A stretch of DNA of 64,000 nt from positions 1,505,501 through 1,569,500 of the forward strand of contig NZ_CP132543.1 of assembly GCF_030845195.1 (NCBI RefSeq), read 5' to 3'. This DNA comes from Sanyastnella coralliicola (lineage in GTDB: Bacteria > Bacteroidota > Bacteroidia > Flavobacteriales_D > Sanyastnellaceae). Under the pieces are notes generated by a model. It worked only from the letters and a program-made list of their open reading frames with translations. It did no database searches and was not told the origin of the DNA. The translations under genes were made by a program, and so were the position numbers. Of the stretch, positions 20,309 to 34,421 are shown piece after piece. The first letter of the stretch is position 1, and every line of letters begins with the position of its first letter.

Positions 20309-20336
20309 AAAAGGCGCCCTTTCGGGACACCTTTAT
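20309..20336 (+). terminator. Imperfect terminator hairpin after dapA
   Basis: AAAGG.G.CCC / GGG.C.CCTTT stem with internal mismatches and a TTTC loop, T-rich tail. Could serve both convergent genes. Confidence 0.5.
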
Positions 20337-20340
20337 TGTA

Positions 20341-20403
20341 TGCGGTATGCGGTAAGCAGTATGCAGTGGCTCTTAGGCCTTAAGCCATAGGCCATAAGCC
20401 TAT
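20341..20403. repeat. Heptamer-period intergenic array A
   Basis: Nine consecutive degenerate 7-mers in one phase with pattern nGCnnTA: TGCGGTA TGCGGTA, then AGCAGTA, TGCAGTG, GCTCTTA, GGCCTTA, AGCCATA, GGCCATA, AGCCTAT. Lies between convergent dapA and the transketolase C-terminal gene; the second half is largely self-complementary. Confidence 0.8.
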
Positions 20404-23615: not shown

Positions 23616-23697
23616 AACTCTAGAGATATCGCCAACAAAGGTACTCCTTCACTTTCGGGTGATTGGTAGATGTTTAAAACTTCTTTGAAAGTTCTGA

Positions 23698-23732
23698 ATT
23701 CCGGCGTCCGGCGTCCGGCATCAGGCGTCTGT
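23698..23732. repeat. Heptamer-period intergenic array B, left arm
   Basis: Five in-phase 7-mers of type CGTCCGG (ATTCCGG CGTCCGG, CGTCCGG, CATCAGG, CGTCTGT). Complementary to the right arm at 23809-23836. Confidence 0.75.
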
Positions 23733-23808
23733 TTGAATGTTTCTAGACTAGTCGGATGAGTGTGATTTGGATGTTGATCAAAACACGAGAAAACAAAAAG
23801 AAAAATCA

Positions 23809-23836
23809 CGGATGCCGGATGGCGGACGGCGGTACC
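23809..23836. repeat. Heptamer-period intergenic array B, right arm
   Basis: Four in-phase 7-mers CGGATGC, CGGATGG, CGGACGG, CGGTACC. An imperfect inverted copy of the left arm 76 nt away, allowing a large stem-loop in the divergent gap before ychF. Confidence 0.75.
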
Positions 23837-23868
23837 CAACGAGTGCGCTCCCTGCGTCCTGAAAAGAT

Positions 23869-23876
23869 TATCTTTG
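23869..23876 (+). promoter_or_regulatory. -7 box for ychF
   Basis: TATCTTTG, a perfect TAnnTTTG match, 20 nt before the ATG at 23897. Confidence 0.6.
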
Positions 23877-23896
23877 CCGACAGTTTAATTACAACT

Positions 23897-24994
23897 ATGG
23901 CACTAAAATGTGGAATTGTCGGACTACCAAATGTTGGGAAATCGACGCTTTTCAATTGTCTATCAAACGCTAAAGCTCAGAGTGCAAACTTCCCGTTCTG
24001 TACGATTGAGCCGAATCTTGGAGTGATTACCGTTCCAGATGAGCGCCTCAATAAGCTGTCTGAGATTGTTCAGCCTCAGAACCTTGTACCAACTACAGTG
24101 GAGATCGTTGATATCGCCGGGTTGGTGAAAGGGGCGAGTAAGGGTGAAGGACTCGGAAATAAGTTCTTGGCGAACATTCGTGAGACCGATGCGATCATTC
24201 ACGTGCTTCGTTGTTTTGATGACGGAAATGTAGTTCACGTTGATGGGAGCGTAGATCCAGTGCGCGATAAGGAGATCATTGATACTGAGCTTCAGTTGAA
24301 AGATCTTGAAACGATTGGCACTCGCGTGGAAAAGGCAGCTCGTGCAGCGAAGACAGGAGATAAGGAAGCACAGAAGCAGATGGATTTCTACAACCGCGTG
24401 ATTGCTACACTTGAAAATGGGCAATCAGCACGTACTGTAGAAGTGGAGGAAAGTGAAGAGCCATTGATGAAAGAGCTTCAGCTGTTGACGTCGAAGCCAA
24501 TTCTATACTTGTGCAATGTTGATGAAGGTTCGGTTGTCAACGGTAACCAATACGTTGATCAGGTAAAGGCTGCAGTTGCTGCTGAGGATGCTGAAGTGCT
24601 CATTATTGGTGCGGCTATTGAAGCGGACATTGCTGAACTAGACGATCAAGAAGAGCGCGATATGTTCTTGGCAGACATCGGTTTGGAAGAGCCTGGCGTA
24701 GCGAAGTTGATCAAATCGGCTTACAATCTATTGAAGCTTCAGACATACTTCACTGCAGGTGAAAAAGAAGTTCGCGCTTGGACAATCAAGCGTGGATTCA
24801 CAGCTCCACAAGCAGCTGGGGTAATCCACACTGATTTCGAAAAAGGATTCATTCGTGCTGAGGTAATTAAATATGATGACTACGTGTCATTGGGTTCCGA
24901 ACAAGCGGTGAAGGAAGCTGGAAAGCTGTCGGTTGAGGGGAAGGAGTACATCGTTCAGGATGGCGATATCATGCACTTCCGCTTCAATGTATAA
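23897..24994 (+). CDS. ychF: Redox-regulated ATPase YchF
   Basis: 365 aa from the ATG at 23897, matching the universal YchF length. An upstream in-frame ATG at 23756 would add 47 residues that run through the heptamer repeats and is rejected. P-loop GLPNVGKST at residues 9-17 and DIAGLVKGAS (G3). The usual NKxD motif is altered to the Obg-class NVDE (LCNVDEG), in keeping with ATP rather than GTP preference. C-terminal TGS-like domain. A ribosome-associated ATPase. Confidence 0.96.
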   Translation: MALKCGIVGLPNVGKSTLFNCLSNAKAQSANFPFCTIEPNLGVITVPDERLNKLSEIVQPQNLVPTTVEIVDIAGLVKGASKGEGLGNKFLANIRETDAIIHVLRCFDDGNVVHVDGSVDPVRDKEIIDTELQLKDLETIGTRVEKAARAAKTGDKEAQKQMDFYNRVIATLENGQSARTVEVEESEEPLMKELQLLTSKPILYLCNVDEGSVVNGNQYVDQVKAAVAAEDAEVLIIGAAIEADIAELDDQEERDMFLADIGLEEPGVAKLIKSAYNLLKLQTYFTAGEKEVRAWTIKRGFTAPQAAGVIHTDFEKGFIRAEVIKYDDYVSLGSEQAVKEAGKLSVEGKEYIVQDGDIMHFRFNV

Positions 24995-25481: not shown

Positions 25482-26144
25482 ATGAGCCTTTCGATCACCA
25501 TCATCATCATCATCATTACTGTAGGTGCCAGCCTTTGGGCTTGGAATGACCGACAGAAATTGGATCAATGGATACTTAATCCATACCTCGTAGTGCACCA
25601 CAAACAATATTGGCGTGTGTTGACCCATGGTTTGATTCATAAGGATCAAATGCATTTGTTCTTCAACATGTTCGTCTTCTACAGTTTCGGCGAGATCTTA
25701 GAGTTGGTGTTCACAAATCGGAATGTTTTCATTCAAGGAACTGGTTCACGCGACTTCTGGGGCGAATCAACGGGCTTGAGTTACTTCATCATTCTCTACG
25801 TTGGAGCGATCATCGCAGCCACAATCCCAGGACTCGTCAAGCACAAAGATAACCCTGGGTACAACTCGCTAGGAGCCTCAGGAGCCGTTTCAGCAATCCT
25901 TATCGTTTACATTTTGATGTTTCCAACGCATCAATTGCTCCTGTTCTTTATCATCCCAATGCCAGCTTGGCTAGCAGGAGTGCTATTCTTCGTCTACGAG
26001 TCATACATGGCGAAACGCGGCGGAACAGGCATCGCTCACGACGCTCACCTATGGGGAGCACTATTTGGTGCAGCATTCATCACGATTCTTCGTCCGGATA
26101 TCTGGTGGCACTTTATCACAGAGCTACCATTCGTTGACGCTTAA
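25482..26144 (+). CDS. Rhomboid-family intramembrane serine protease
   Basis: 220 aa, about six hydrophobic helices. Catalytic Ser133 in GASG (131-134) and His189 in HDAHLWGALFG. The fold motif HLFFNMFVFYSFG sits in the L1 region, and the Asn/His of the oxyanion site are plausible there. Cleaves transmembrane substrates inside the inner membrane. Starts immediately after the DUF4440 stop. An ATC triplet run at about 25497-25517 encodes consecutive Ile in the first helix; being a triplet repeat it cannot shift frame. Confidence 0.93.
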   Translation: MSLSITIIIIIITVGASLWAWNDRQKLDQWILNPYLVVHHKQYWRVLTHGLIHKDQMHLFFNMFVFYSFGEILELVFTNRNVFIQGTGSRDFWGESTGLSYFIILYVGAIIAATIPGLVKHKDNPGYNSLGASGAVSAILIVYILMFPTHQLLLFFIIPMPAWLAGVLFFVYESYMAKRGGTGIAHDAHLWGALFGAAFITILRPDIWWHFITELPFVDA

Positions 26145-26145
26145 C

Positions 26146-26201
26146 GTAGGCTGTAGGCTGTATGCCGTATGCTGTATGCTGTATGCTGAACTTATGACTT
26201 A
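26146..26201. repeat. Heptamer-period intergenic array C1
   Basis: In-phase 7-mers GTAGGCT GTAGGCT, GTATGCC, then GTATGCT three times, GAACTTA, TGACTTA. Starts one nt after the rhomboid stop. Confidence 0.8.
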
Positions 26202-26205
26202 ATTA

Positions 26206-26268
26206 CCGCGATCTGCAATCCGCATTCCGTGTTCCGCGATCTGCAATCCGCAATCTGCGCTCCGCATT
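26206..26268. repeat. Heptamer-period intergenic array C2
   Basis: Nine in-phase 7-mers of two alternating types, CCGCRWT and CTGCAAT (CCGCGAT CTGCAAT, CCGCATT, CCGTGTT, CCGCGAT, CTGCAAT, CCGCAAT, CTGCGCT, CCGCATT). Between convergent rhomboid and DUF3667 genes. Confidence 0.8.
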
Positions 26269-26272
26269 CCTC

Positions 26273-27055
26273 CTAAACAGTTGAGTTGAAGATGTAGACT
26301 ACTAGGCCTACGATGACCGCTGTGAAAACCAATCCAGAACAGAACGAAACAGCGAAAGCTCTTGATATAGCACTGAACCAGTTTTTGGTTTTGAAGGCAC
26401 TTGCGAGCATGTAAGTGACAATCAGTGACAATATGAACCCAACAAGAATGGCGATGTTGACGTTCAACATGGCTATTGGGACCAGCAGAATAAAGAAGGT
26501 GTTTTGCCAGCCAAGCATAAAGGCGTTAGCAGCGAGGTGTTCGGCGTAATTGTAACCCTTTTTTCTGAAGAATAGCCATGAAAACAGGGCTCGAAGAGGA
26601 GCTAAGACTAAGAACAAGGTGTTCAACAGTTGATTGAAAAGGGTGGATGCTCGGTCAAAAATCTCTGTCAGCTGAGCACGTGCTTCTTCGTTTTCGATTC
26701 CTTTGACTGCTTCGTCTATTGACTGCACTCCGTCTTCTCGTGGGCCTAGACTGAAGTTTACATTGCCGGATTCGTCGACCCTCGGTTTTAACGAGAAGTT
26801 ATCGGATACGAAAACTAGGTTTAGGCTTAGAAAGGTAGCCAAGGCTGCTGTCAGGAACAAGAACCGCAAAGGGTGTACTGGACGTCTTCTGTCTTTATTG
26901 AAGTATTCATCTAAAAAGGTAGAAGGACGAAGGAATAATTCACGAAGTGTGTACAACATCCCACGTTCGAGGTTGAAGATGCCGAGCATATCTTCAGCCA
27001 AGGAACGCATGGTAATGCGCTTTAGTTCTGGTTGATCCTTTGGTTGGTTATCCAC
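26273..27055 (-). CDS. DUF3667 membrane protein
   Basis: 260 aa. The first ~75 residues hold the DUF3667 zinc-ribbon-less version with the family helix (LERGMLYTLRELFLRPSTFLDEYF, then DRRRPVHPLRFLF), followed by four or five membrane segments in the C-terminal 160 residues. Widespread in Bacteroidota; function unknown. Heptamer arrays flank it on both sides. Confidence 0.82.
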   Translation of the reverse strand: MDNQPKDQPELKRITMRSLAEDMLGIFNLERGMLYTLRELFLRPSTFLDEYFNKDRRRPVHPLRFLFLTAALATFLSLNLVFVSDNFSLKPRVDESGNVNFSLGPREDGVQSIDEAVKGIENEEARAQLTEIFDRASTLFNQLLNTLFLVLAPLRALFSWLFFRKKGYNYAEHLAANAFMLGWQNTFFILLVPIAMLNVNIAILVGFILSLIVTYMLASAFKTKNWFSAISRAFAVSFCSGLVFTAVIVGLVVYIFNSTV

Positions 27056-27081
27056 AATCTAAATATAGGGATAGTAGGTCG

Positions 27082-27130
27082 TTCGTTGTGGGTAGTTCGT
27101 AGTTCGTGGTGCGTAGTTCGTAGTGACTAT
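27082..27130. repeat. Heptamer-period intergenic array D
   Basis: Seven in-phase 7-mers of type TTCGTAG (TTCGTTG, TGGGTAG, TTCGTAG, TTCGTGG, TGCGTAG, TTCGTAG, TGACTAT) between two genes read in the same direction. Confidence 0.8.
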
Positions 27131-27151
27131 GAATCGTTCAACTAGTAAGCC

Positions 27152-27445: not shown

Positions 27446-27526
27446 GTATCAAAGGAACGAGAATCCTCACTCATTATGACACTATTCGTTGAATGTTGCT
27501 GACATGGTAGAGTGGATTAACTCTGG

Positions 27527-27656
27527 TTAGGCTTATGGCGTATGGCTTAAGGCTTAAGTGGGTTTCTAGTTATTAGTCTTTAGTCCTTAGTTCTTAGTTA
27601 TCGTTTCTAGATTATCGATTCATTCCCCTAGACCCTCGACTCTCGTCTCTCGTCTA
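27527..27656. repeat. Heptamer-period intergenic arrays E1-E3
   Basis: Three successive in-phase families: TATGGCT/TAAGGCT (27527-27561), GTYNTTA (27562-27603: GTTTCTA, GTTATTA, GTCTTTA, GTCCTTA, GTTCTTA, GTTATCG) and NCTCTCG (27632-27656: ACCCTCG, ACTCTCG, TCTCTCG). The last one runs into the stop of the symporter-like gene. Confidence 0.78.
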
Positions 27657-32196: not shown

Positions 32197-33447
32197 GTGC
32201 TTCAATTCATTCTCAAACGATCGATATATGGTATCAGCGTCTTATTTGGCGTTGTTACCCTTGTGTTCTTCCTATTTGCGCTTGTGCCTGATCCAGCGCG
32301 TGAGTTAGCAGGACAAAGTGAATCTGAAGAGATCGTTCAAGCTATTCGTGAGAAGTATGATTTAGACCTGCCGGTCGGAACGCGCTTCGCGCTTTTCATC
32401 AATGATTTAAGTCCGATTTCAGTGTATTCCACGGATCCCAATAGCAGAAGGGATCATCCGGAGGTGAGTTCCATTGTTTTTATCTCAGGTTCATCAAACC
32501 AATGGGTATTGAAGAAGCCCTACTTAGGACGTTCCTTCATCACGGATCGGAATGTGGGTGATATCCTTTCAGATGCCTTTCCAGGAACCATTGTGCTTGC
32601 TTTAACGGCAATGGTGTTCGCCTTAATCATAGGGCTATTCCTTGGGGTCGTAGCTGCCTTAAACGAAGGAGAGGGGTTAGATAGAACCATTCTGCTGCTG
32701 TCATCAGTGGGTATGAGCGGACCATCATTCTTCATGGCCATCTTAGTGGCATGGGTAGGAGGTTTTCTGCTTCATGACCAATTCAATATCTCTCTTTGGC
32801 TCATCGTAATTCCAGCGATCACAGTCATCTTCTTGAAGTTTGGAAAGAACGCAAGCTGGAAAGAAGCTCTGGCACATCGGTGGTTTGGTTATTCCTTTAT
32901 TGTCGCTCTGTTGATTTGGCCAATTTCATCTTGGTTAGGATTGCCGTTGCTCTCTGTAGACACAGGAGGTACAGGGCTTTCTATGAATGGAAGCATGTAT
33001 GAAGTAGATGTTTGGGAAGGACAGCAGCTAGCTCTGAGAAACTTAATTCTTCCAGCATTGACCTTGGGTATTCGACCGCTAGCGGTCATCAGCCAATTAA
33101 TGCGCAACAGCGTGCTCGAGGTGATGCAACAAGAGTTCATTCGCACAGCAAAAGCAAAGGGCATCAATCAATTCAAACTAATCACGCGACATGTTCTTCG
33201 GAACGCGCTCAATCCGGTAATTACCGCTGCTTCAGGATGGCTCGCCTCAATGCTCGCAGGAGCCGTGTTCGTGGAGTTCGTTTTCGGATGGAAAGGAATG
33301 GGAATGGAAGTATTCCGAAGCCTCGAAAAGAATGACCTACCCGTAGTTATGGGAGCGGTTATGGTGATCGCACTCATCTTTGTGGTCATCAACACCCTAG
33401 TAGATATTCTTTACGCCTGGATCGATCCTCGAGTAAGACTTTCTTAG
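32197..33447 (+). CDS. Oligopeptide/dipeptide-type ABC transporter permease
   Basis: 416 aa, GTG start directly after the preceding stop. BPD_transp_1 permease of the DppB/OppB type: opening FILKRSIYGISVLFGVVTLVFFL, and the EAA loop EFIRTAKAKGINQFKLITRHVLRNALNPV. The ~100-residue loop between the first two spans is longer than in E. coli DppB. No second permease, ATPase or binding-protein gene lies in the window, so the rest of the transporter is encoded elsewhere. Two-gene transcript with the DoxX-like protein. Confidence 0.9.
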   Translation: MLQFILKRSIYGISVLFGVVTLVFFLFALVPDPARELAGQSESEEIVQAIREKYDLDLPVGTRFALFINDLSPISVYSTDPNSRRDHPEVSSIVFISGSSNQWVLKKPYLGRSFITDRNVGDILSDAFPGTIVLALTAMVFALIIGLFLGVVAALNEGEGLDRTILLLSSVGMSGPSFFMAILVAWVGGFLLHDQFNISLWLIVIPAITVIFLKFGKNASWKEALAHRWFGYSFIVALLIWPISSWLGLPLLSVDTGGTGLSMNGSMYEVDVWEGQQLALRNLILPALTLGIRPLAVISQLMRNSVLEVMQQEFIRTAKAKGINQFKLITRHVLRNALNPVITAASGWLASMLAGAVFVEFVFGWKGMGMEVFRSLEKNDLPVVMGAVMVIALIFVVINTLVDILYAWIDPRVRLS

Positions 33448-33448
33448 T

Positions 33449-33483
33449 GTAGGCGGTAAGCAGTATGCTGTATGCTGTTAGAT
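33449..33483. repeat. Heptamer-period intergenic array F, left part
   Basis: Five in-phase 7-mers GTAGGCG GTAAGCA, GTATGCT, GTATGCT, GTTAGAT. An inverted partner of the last 7-mers of the right part. Confidence 0.8.
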
Positions 33484-33494
33484 ATCTGTAGATT

Positions 33495-33564
33495 CCGTCC
33501 ACCGTCCACCGTCCACCGTCCACCGTCCACCGTATACAGCATACTGCCTACAGCTTACGGCCTA
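33495..33564. repeat. Heptamer-period intergenic array F, right part
   Basis: Five perfect CCGTCCA copies followed in the same phase by CCGTATA, CAGCATA, CTGCCTA, CAGCTTA, CGGCCTA: ten 7-mers without a phase break. Sits between convergent permease and pabC-like genes, where it could form a large terminator-like hairpin with the left part. Confidence 0.88.
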
Positions 33565-33566
33565 CA

Positions 33567-34421
33567 TCAAACAGTGTTCATCGCACCGGCAGTCTCGTTC
33601 AACAGGTCTGTCAACTTCTGAGACATGTCGTTGTAGTAGCGCTTTGTGCGGTAGCTACTGACCCATTGAATCCCTTTGACGGCGTTCGTGAGGAAGAGCT
33701 CGTCGGCAGCCAAGAGGTTTTGCGGGCTCAAGGTGCACTCGTAGATCTTGATGTTGTTTTCGAGGGCTAGGTTAATGACCTGCATGCGCATGATTCCAGC
33801 TACTGGTCCGTCTTCGAGAGTAGAGGTATAGAGCACTCCATTTGAAACAAGGAACACATTTGAACTAGTTCCTTCAATGATGCCCATTTTGTAATTCTGA
33901 ATCAAGGCGTCGTCTAGTCCTTTCTCTTGAGCGTAAAGGGCTGCCAAGACGTATAGCTTGCAATCGATATTCTTGTAGATCGAAAGTTTGTTGACGTCTT
34001 TCTTGATGTCAGGGTAAATGTCAACCTTCAAGCCTTCACCATTGAGCTCAAACCGATTGTTCGGAATGGCCATGGCTTCGATGGTATAGACAAAGTCACG
34101 TGAAGTAGGAAGGTAGAATCCACCAGCTTTCCGCGTGAACGTGATGCGGATACGTCCTCCTTGGAGCACTGAGTTCTTTTCACACAACTCAATGATTTCA
34201 CGTTCGATTTTCTGCAAAGCAAAATTGATCGGACGATCCATTTGGTAGGCCTTGAGGGAATCGAGAATGCGTGAAAAATGATGTTCTAGGAAGAGGGGTT
34301 TCCCATTGAATACGCGAATTGTTTCAAAAAAACCATCAGCGAACCGAAATCCACGGTTGTTCGAAAAGATGGCTGGAGCATCTTCCGGGTAGAATTGGCC
34401 GTCGCTGAATACGTATCCCAT
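33567..34421 (-). CDS. pabC: Class IV aminotransferase, probable 4-amino-4-deoxychorismate lyase
   Basis: 284 aa, fold-type IV PLP protein. N-terminal GYVFSDGQFYPEDAPAIFSNNRGFRFADGFFETIRVFNGKP is split across the conserved RGF..DG.FET core. The lysine in YKNIDCK is a candidate PLP site, and EGTSSNVFLV is the family cofactor loop. Aminodeoxychorismate lyase makes p-aminobenzoate for folate; D-amino acid or branched-chain aminotransferase activity cannot be excluded. folP lies in the same window but on another transcript. Overlaps the HAD gene stop by one base (TAATG). Confidence 0.8.
   Translation of the reverse strand: MGYVFSDGQFYPEDAPAIFSNNRGFRFADGFFETIRVFNGKPLFLEHHFSRILDSLKAYQMDRPINFALQKIEREIIELCEKNSVLQGGRIRITFTRKAGGFYLPTSRDFVYTIEAMAIPNNRFELNGEGLKVDIYPDIKKDVNKLSIYKNIDCKLYVLAALYAQEKGLDDALIQNYKMGIIEGTSSNVFLVSNGVLYTSTLEDGPVAGIMRMQVINLALENNIKIYECTLSPQNLLAADELFLTNAVKGIQWVSSYRTKRYYNDMSQKLTDLLNETAGAMNTV

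Follow-up and report, generated by a model that had tools for sequence, protein, structure and literature searches.

Facing heptamer arrays between two convergent genes form part of a chromosome-wide repeat population in Sanyastnella coralliicola

Is an inverted repeat between two convergent genes a shared transcript end, or the local trace of something that goes on all over the chromosome? The question is raised by a 116-nt feature at positions 33449–33564 of a 64,000-nucleotide stretch of the Sanyastnella coralliicola chromosome (RefSeq assembly GCF_030845195.1, contig NZ_CP132543.1, positions 1,505,501 to 1,569,500; here the window), in which two arrays of 7-nt units face each other. The original prediction, made from the letters of the stretch, was of a long stem with perfect heptamers in its loop, which would bear on the 3′ ends of both genes. 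We favour, as probable though far from certain, a different explanation: the locus is one of the fast-evolving heptamer arrays found throughout this chromosome, which would have grown in intergenic DNA by replication slippage in 7-nt steps.

Architecture of the locus

An ABC-transporter permease gene (BPD_transp_1; 32197–33447, + strand) ends in the stop codon TAG at 33445–33447, and a class IV aminotransferase gene (Aminotran_4; 33567–34421, − strand) turns its stop towards it. The feature begins 1 nt past the TAG and finishes 2 nt short of the opposing stop. Its left arm (33449–33476, + strand) consists of four heptamers, GTAGGCG GTAAGCA GTATGCT GTATGCT, whose G/T-rich strand reads away from the permease gene. 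An 18-nt spacer (33477–33494) is followed by five perfect CCGTCCA units (33495–33529; Tandem Repeats Finder score 78, 100% matches) and by the degenerate units CCGTATA CAGCATA CTGCCTA CAGCTTA CGGCCTA (33530–33564), which on the − strand read GTAGGCC GTAAGCT GTAGGCA GTATGCT GTATACG. The units and positions first reported are correct to the base. The CCGTCCA run had been taken for a separate loop element, which it is not: as GTGGACG on the − strand it shares the 7-nt register of the degenerate units, and all ten heptamers of the right side form a single unbroken array. The proposed complementarity between the left units and the last units on the right is real: starting from each gene's stop, the arms are identical at 26 of their first 30 positions in an ungapped comparison. 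With head-to-tail 7-nt units in several copies, and with the intergenic enrichment described below, the feature is a heptameric simple sequence repeat (SSR).

The region also folds as foreseen, into a long stem between convergent gene ends, the loop taking up most of the perfect heptamers. Its RNA reaches −43.7 kcal/mol on the + strand (z −3.6, equalled or bettered by 1 of 200 shuffles) and −51.7 kcal/mol on the − strand (z −4.0, by none of 200), which is above chance on both; because shuffling destroys repeats and pairing together, these scores test the two jointly. The minimum-energy stem of the + strand has a 7-nt bulge, since the arms differ in unit number. Judged by sequence matching, the pairing specificity of the two arms is limited. 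Of the other arrays in the chromosome sample described below, 2 of 65 A/C-rich ones equal or surpass the true right arm in their match to the left arm, and 13 of 89 G/T-rich ones equal or surpass the true left arm in their match to the right arm, chiefly to its GTGGACG units. Searches of the window returned no Rfam match at gathering scores, and neither a tRNA nor a tmRNA.

Heptamer arrays throughout the chromosome

The chromosome is a single contig of 4.10 Mb, of which our sample of 986,380 bases (24%) comprises the window, its flanks and 39 evenly spaced 20-kb stretches. Gaps between genes were defined by a simple caller based on open reading frames (ORFs) rather than by Prodigal, and those shorter than 25 nt or with letters missing were left out of the counts. 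Period 7 accounts for 179 segments of the sample, and every other period from 4 to 15 for 0–13, save period 14 with 91; a mononucleotide shuffle of the sample yields no period-7 segment. The arrays are intergenic: 84 of 426 gaps hold 180 of them, making up 8.8% of gap bases, shuffled gaps hold none, and at a different threshold 152 of 155 islands lie between genes. Simple proportion gives about 750 arrays for the whole chromosome.

The segments have 67 distinct consensus units, 55 of which are joined in one single-base-step network (mean 12 and maximum 28 in 50 permutations). Aligned in phase, the units share a weak motif (score 2.73, against 2.29 ± 0.08 and a maximum of 2.56 among 100 controls). 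Arrays lie between 26 of 131 convergent, 22 of 128 divergent and 36 of 491 tandem gene pairs, a frequency that differs between convergent and tandem pairs (p = 1e-4) and not between convergent and divergent ones (p = 0.63). They crowd against stops, where 48 of 106 are within 7 nt of the gene edge, as against 6 of 74 at starts, whose positions are less certain under our gene calls.

Insertion and turnover

Two further genomes of the genus carry such arrays. G001, a metagenome-assembled genome (MAG) in 80 contigs whose identity to the window over 10.5 kb at this locus is 92%, has 40 segments in 328 kb, and G002 has 7 in 180 kb. Sampled stretches of six other genomes (20–60 kb each, 239 kb in total) held no arrays at the threshold used. 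The exact pattern CCGTCCA was found in 2 of 40 genomes, S. coralliicola and G001, and the exact pattern GTTCGTG in 2 of 395 Bacteroidota genomes, S. coralliicola and, with one copy, G292. Matches to GGTGCTT occur in 5 of the 395, and both genomes sampled from these five, G203 and G156, carry heptamer arrays of several units. The units seen there (L157–L176, L177–L216) are GGTGCTT, TTGGCAG, TTGGAAT and AATTCAT-like. Period 7 is not dominant in G203, since a 400-kb sample that includes coding DNA has 10 segments of period 7 and 17 of period 8. One convergent gap of G203 (L189, 16334) holds a T-tract hairpin bracketed by facing arms.

Comparison of the permease/aminotransferase neighbourhood across the loci of 30 relatives (L009–L038) bears on the age of the feature. 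The two genes are convergent neighbours in S. coralliicola, in G001 and in 13 genomes of other genera. In 12 of the latter (G003, G006, G007, G009, G011, G012, G013, G014, G016, G017, G019 and G020) the stops are −12 to +13 nt apart; in the thirteenth, G018, just a 48-residue piece of a permease was matched, about 1.3 kb off. No permease was found within reach in 14 loci, that of G002 included, and G010 has its permease on the same strand, elsewhere. Because the stops abut or overlap in 12 of the 13 other-genus genomes, the array is an insertion, and its DNA appears to have entered within this genus or shortly before. The abutting or overlapping convergent pair is itself conserved in at least 12 genera of the family. 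Between the two array-bearing genomes the stop-to-stop distance, 119 nt in S. coralliicola and 84 nt in G001, differs by 35 nt, or five units.

Of 112 orthologous gaps compared between S. coralliicola and G001, 23 have an array in the former and 89 are array-free. None of the 23 is equal in length in the two genomes, the difference in 10 of them being a multiple of 7. Among the 89, 77 are equal in length and the other 12 never differ by a multiple of 7. Close relatives thus show the changes in steps of seven that mark a heptameric SSR. Eighteen of the 23 array gaps are array-bearing by the same criterion in G001 and five are not; the reverse case was seen 0 times, a count qualified by G001 being a MAG in which several contigs end beside arrays. 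The five mostly still hold degraded or shorter arrays, and none is a clean empty site. Examples from the two genomes show units replaced and homogenised inside arrays. Some G001 contigs (C60, C54 and C9; L042, L136, L137) end near heptamer arrays, and because of such endings MAGs may undercount arrays.

Polarity

We call an array G/T-rich if G + T exceeds A + C on the strand read; near-equal arrays were left out or counted as neutral. All 29 gaps of S. coralliicola that hold both polarities have the majority order of G/T-rich on the left and A/C-rich on the right, whether the genes are convergent (10/10), tandem (10/10) or divergent (9/9). Arrays at most 7 nt from a stop are G/T-rich outward in 36 cases, inward in 6 and neutral in 7. 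The order holds in 4 of 4 gaps of G001, where stop edges within 15 nt are 13:0 outward, and in 2 of 2 gaps of G203, while G002 has no informative gap. Whole array-bearing gaps are skewed too, with G/T content higher on the left side in 21 of 26 convergent, 25 of 33 tandem and 13 of 20 divergent cases; the figures for array-free gaps are 10 of 25, 81 of 149 and 44 of 71. By DNA folding energies, 112 of 156 arrays have a G/T-rich strand that folds on itself more stably than the complementary strand, and 33 have one that folds less stably; base composition contributes to the difference, because shuffled strands show part of it. This in silico hint suggests that loop-outs of new G/T-rich strands may be favoured.

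A proposed mechanism

On the explanation that we favour, a short G/T-rich heptamer beside a gene edge would slip, with the looped-out new strand held by its own folding, and units would be gained and lost in sevens. Point changes would then make the units drift, and each array would be re-homogenised within itself. Arrays would arise on both flanks of a gap, largely independently, and so become able to pair. Growth would be polarised: since strands that leave gene edges tend to be G/T-rich, a gap with two arrays would have them facing each other as a quasi-palindrome. Slippage would thus be the engine and growth at G/T-rich 3′ ends the cause of the polarity; the arrays would have no dedicated function, and the RNA or DNA hairpin would be mostly a by-product.

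Several observations weigh against this account. By itself slippage accounts neither for the strict 7-nt unit nor for the polarity with respect to gene edges. In 13 of the 23 array gaps the length difference from the G001 counterpart is not divisible by 7. Taken one array pair at a time, the order holds in 76 and fails in 11, hence is not absolute, and by G-versus-C skew the split is 31 to 4 (four exceptions in 35 gaps). In G156, which bears heptamers, the sole informative gap has the reverse order (0 of 1), given which the G/T-outward rule may lack universality. The bias at start edges within 15 nt is weak, with outward/inward counts of 9/2 in S. coralliicola (p = 0.065), 0/2 in G001, 0/1 in G002, 4/0 in G203 and 0/1 in G156. 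Finally, the enrichment of arrays right at stop codons would also suit a 3′-end function.

Is the hairpin a transcript end?

Such a function would be served by a bidirectional terminator or mRNA 3′-end hairpin common to both convergent genes, kept by selection and perhaps Rho-assisted via the C-rich right half. The placement of the feature between convergent genes, its strong RNA fold, the closeness of arrays to stops and their excess at convergent over tandem pairs all agree with this idea, as does a lower share of gene-direction T-tract hairpins in array-bearing tandem gaps (3/35, against 34/147 in the others; p = 0.06). We nevertheless think it unlikely. On neither strand is the stem followed by a T-tract, so that the hairpin lacks the mark of an intrinsic terminator, and a terminator scan gave two hits, both with stems inside the neighbouring genes. 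Divergent pairs are array-bearing as often as convergent ones, with identical polarity. The orthologous locus of G001 keeps its array but folds weakly (101 nt, z −1.5; 14 of 200 shuffles as good). Of the convergent gaps of at least 60 nt, 11 of the 25 with arrays and 7 of the 26 without have T-tract hairpins, and one such hairpin also lies alongside the array at the 1013600 locus. In the 12 other-genus genomes the gene pair abuts with no such element, or room for one, in between.

Pairing of arms with their own partners rather than across S. coralliicola and G001 likewise gives no sign of co-evolution (10 of 21 gaps favourable, 11 not, p = 0.79; 21 of the 23 array gaps were kept, those shorter than 50 or longer than 700 nt being left out), and general covariation of the arms between the two genomes was rejected on this negative test. 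A 3′-end structure specific to the locus, as the original prediction implied, is thus unsupported, and a locus-specific terminator was set aside as the leading explanation on account of the weak sister fold, the missing T-tract, the arrays in divergent gaps and the spacer-free relatives.

What sets the polarity and pairs the arms

About as improbable as a terminator, in our estimate, is a polarity set by selection acting on RNA, through A/C-rich unstructured leaders before starts and G/U-rich tails after stops. The polarity is indeed relative to gene edges and resembles the orientation preference for G-rich repeats described in the part of Rehm et al. (PMC4692102) drawn on here, and such selection could act alongside the array growth that we propose. 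It suits start edges better than stops, yet the bias is strongest at stops. The polarity could come from such selection on leaders and tails or from 3′-end growth.

The arms might, with a still lower probability, owe their likeness to each other: a fold-back (snap-back) event at replication, with one array serving as template for the other, would both create the quasi-palindrome and homogenise its arms. Template switching of this kind has reportedly been described. The identity of the arms at the present locus points that way, as do two stems elsewhere: one at 1469907 in S. coralliicola is long with hardly a break, and one in G001, at the 1013600 locus, runs through 19 pairs without interruption. 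Of these 19 pairs, two have changed on both sides between the genomes with pairing kept and three are broken in S. coralliicola, a count made by eye at a locus picked after the fact. Arm similarity beats permutation if the best pair of each gap is chosen (16 of 5,000), a result that is the stronger because of that choice. For the outermost arms of 29 gaps the score is 11.2 for own and 9.4 for permuted pairs, and 325 of 5,000 permutations reach the former, which is not significant. The general lack of arm co-evolution, and the foreign arrays that match the left arm here as well as its partner does, also speak against copying.

Somewhat more doubtful again is a polarised, telomere-like growth from gene-flanking DNA, in which each side of a break or gap is extended at its 3′ end by G/T-rich units before the two ends are joined. 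If this were true, both arms of a two-armed array would read G/T-rich outward irrespective of how the genes are oriented, and the 7-nt ruler would be set by an enzyme and not by the sequence.

A mobile element, or one like the REPINs (hairpin-forming doublets of repetitive extragenic palindromes, REPs), moved by a Y1 transposase of the REP-associated (RAYT) type, is very improbable: the copies are dispersed in intergenic DNA with facing arms and S. coralliicola has a single weak Y1_Tnp match (PF01797, E 3e-4), but no fixed terminal sequence was seen among 67 different consensus units, and the origin was set aside since Y1_Tnp, present in 21 of the 40 genomes searched, S. coralliicola included, shows no correspondence with where arrays occur. 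That the arrays were permitted by loss of the hairpin nuclease SbcD was rejected as non-specific, because the absence of a match in S. coralliicola and G001 (G002 has sub-threshold matches only) is shared by 16 of 22 other genomes searched.

Other arrays in the window and the sample

At a strict threshold the window holds seven period-7 islands, all intergenic except that at 23783–23833. Between convergent genes, like the present one, lie an array at 20334–20401, beside a T-tract hairpin for the − strand gene, and, at 26129–26276, a GTAGGCT/GTATGCT array on the left with a CCGCAAT-type array on the right, both altered in G001. A TCCGGCG array (23681–23734, + strand) separates divergent genes, and the GGATGCC-type array at 23783–23833 overlaps the 5′ end of the longest ORF (23756–24994); the G001 orthologue of each is shorter by one unit. 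The remaining islands are a GTTCGTA-type array (27068–27140, + strand) and three successive arrays of differing units (27522–27655).

Elsewhere in the sample, the units around 1016669–1016859 (L080, C1:1000001–1020000) shift stepwise across several families, mostly in one register. In the first 600 bases of L081 (C1:1100001–1120000), several heptamer arrays at a time make up blocks of roughly 100 nt that are themselves repeated in tandem, a higher-order repeat. At about 1207641 (L082, C1:1200001–1220000), TTGGTTG and TTAGTTC alternate in a long array, giving period 14.

Relation to known heptamer repeats

Cyanobacterial short tandemly repeated repetitive (STRR) heptamers are families of heptamers in noncoding DNA. 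The arrays of this genus belong to a wider class of bacterial heptamer repeats, and two published systems lend themselves to closer comparison.

The closest is that of Rehm et al. 2015 (PMC4692102), whose sections considered here describe the G-rich heptamers GGGAATC in Xanthomonas and GGGGA(C/T)T in Nostoc and also mention heptamers in Calothrix. As in our case, facing pairs occur (70 and 75 cases in Xanthomonas), length and sequence vary greatly among close relatives, and no function is established. The G-rich strand is found downstream on the coding and upstream on the non-coding strand, a pattern that also holds here, weakly if starts alone are taken; because it was reported there, the orientation tendency is not new. 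Their system has one unit capable of forming a G-quadruplex, with runs of GGG or GGGG, whereas here there are 67 consensus units, few with GGG, and those of the present locus (GTAGGCN, GTATGCN, GTAAGCN and GTGGACG) contain no run of three or more G. Divergent gaps are under-represented in theirs, according to the same sections, and here they are as array-bearing as convergent ones.

MacGregor 2015 (PMC4679880), in the part compared, reports TAACTGA direct repeats in marine Beggiatoaceae, cyanobacteria and five Bacteroidetes, suggested there as sites of a translational regulator. These too are intergenic tandem heptamers whose insertions and deletions between close strains are mostly 7-nt steps, and which in some genomes are mixed with other heptamers. 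They have one fixed unit, mainly just before starts (in the BOGUAY genome), and ours have many units, mainly after stops; a TAACTGA unit just upstream of starts is not what the present locus shows. A literature search in which most subscription papers were beyond reach found no facing heptamer arrays of many units in Flavobacteriales, and no account of a near-absolute order rule with many, mostly GGG-free units that extends to divergent gaps in that order.

What the arrays mean

The order rule, which holds in 29 of 29 two-polarity gaps, is something for which any mechanism must account. It also calls for caution: hairpins between convergent genes whose arms are tandem arrays should not be taken for terminators. 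Why repeats of seven bases dominate has been put down to a polymerase contact length, an unproven idea cited in the part of PMC4692102 seen here. With its 180 sampled arrays and 67 units, the turnover visible against a 92%-identical sister, a gene pair that dates an insertion, and its order rule, this genus is a strong natural case for asking why 7, and not 6 or 8, dominates some bacterial genomes.
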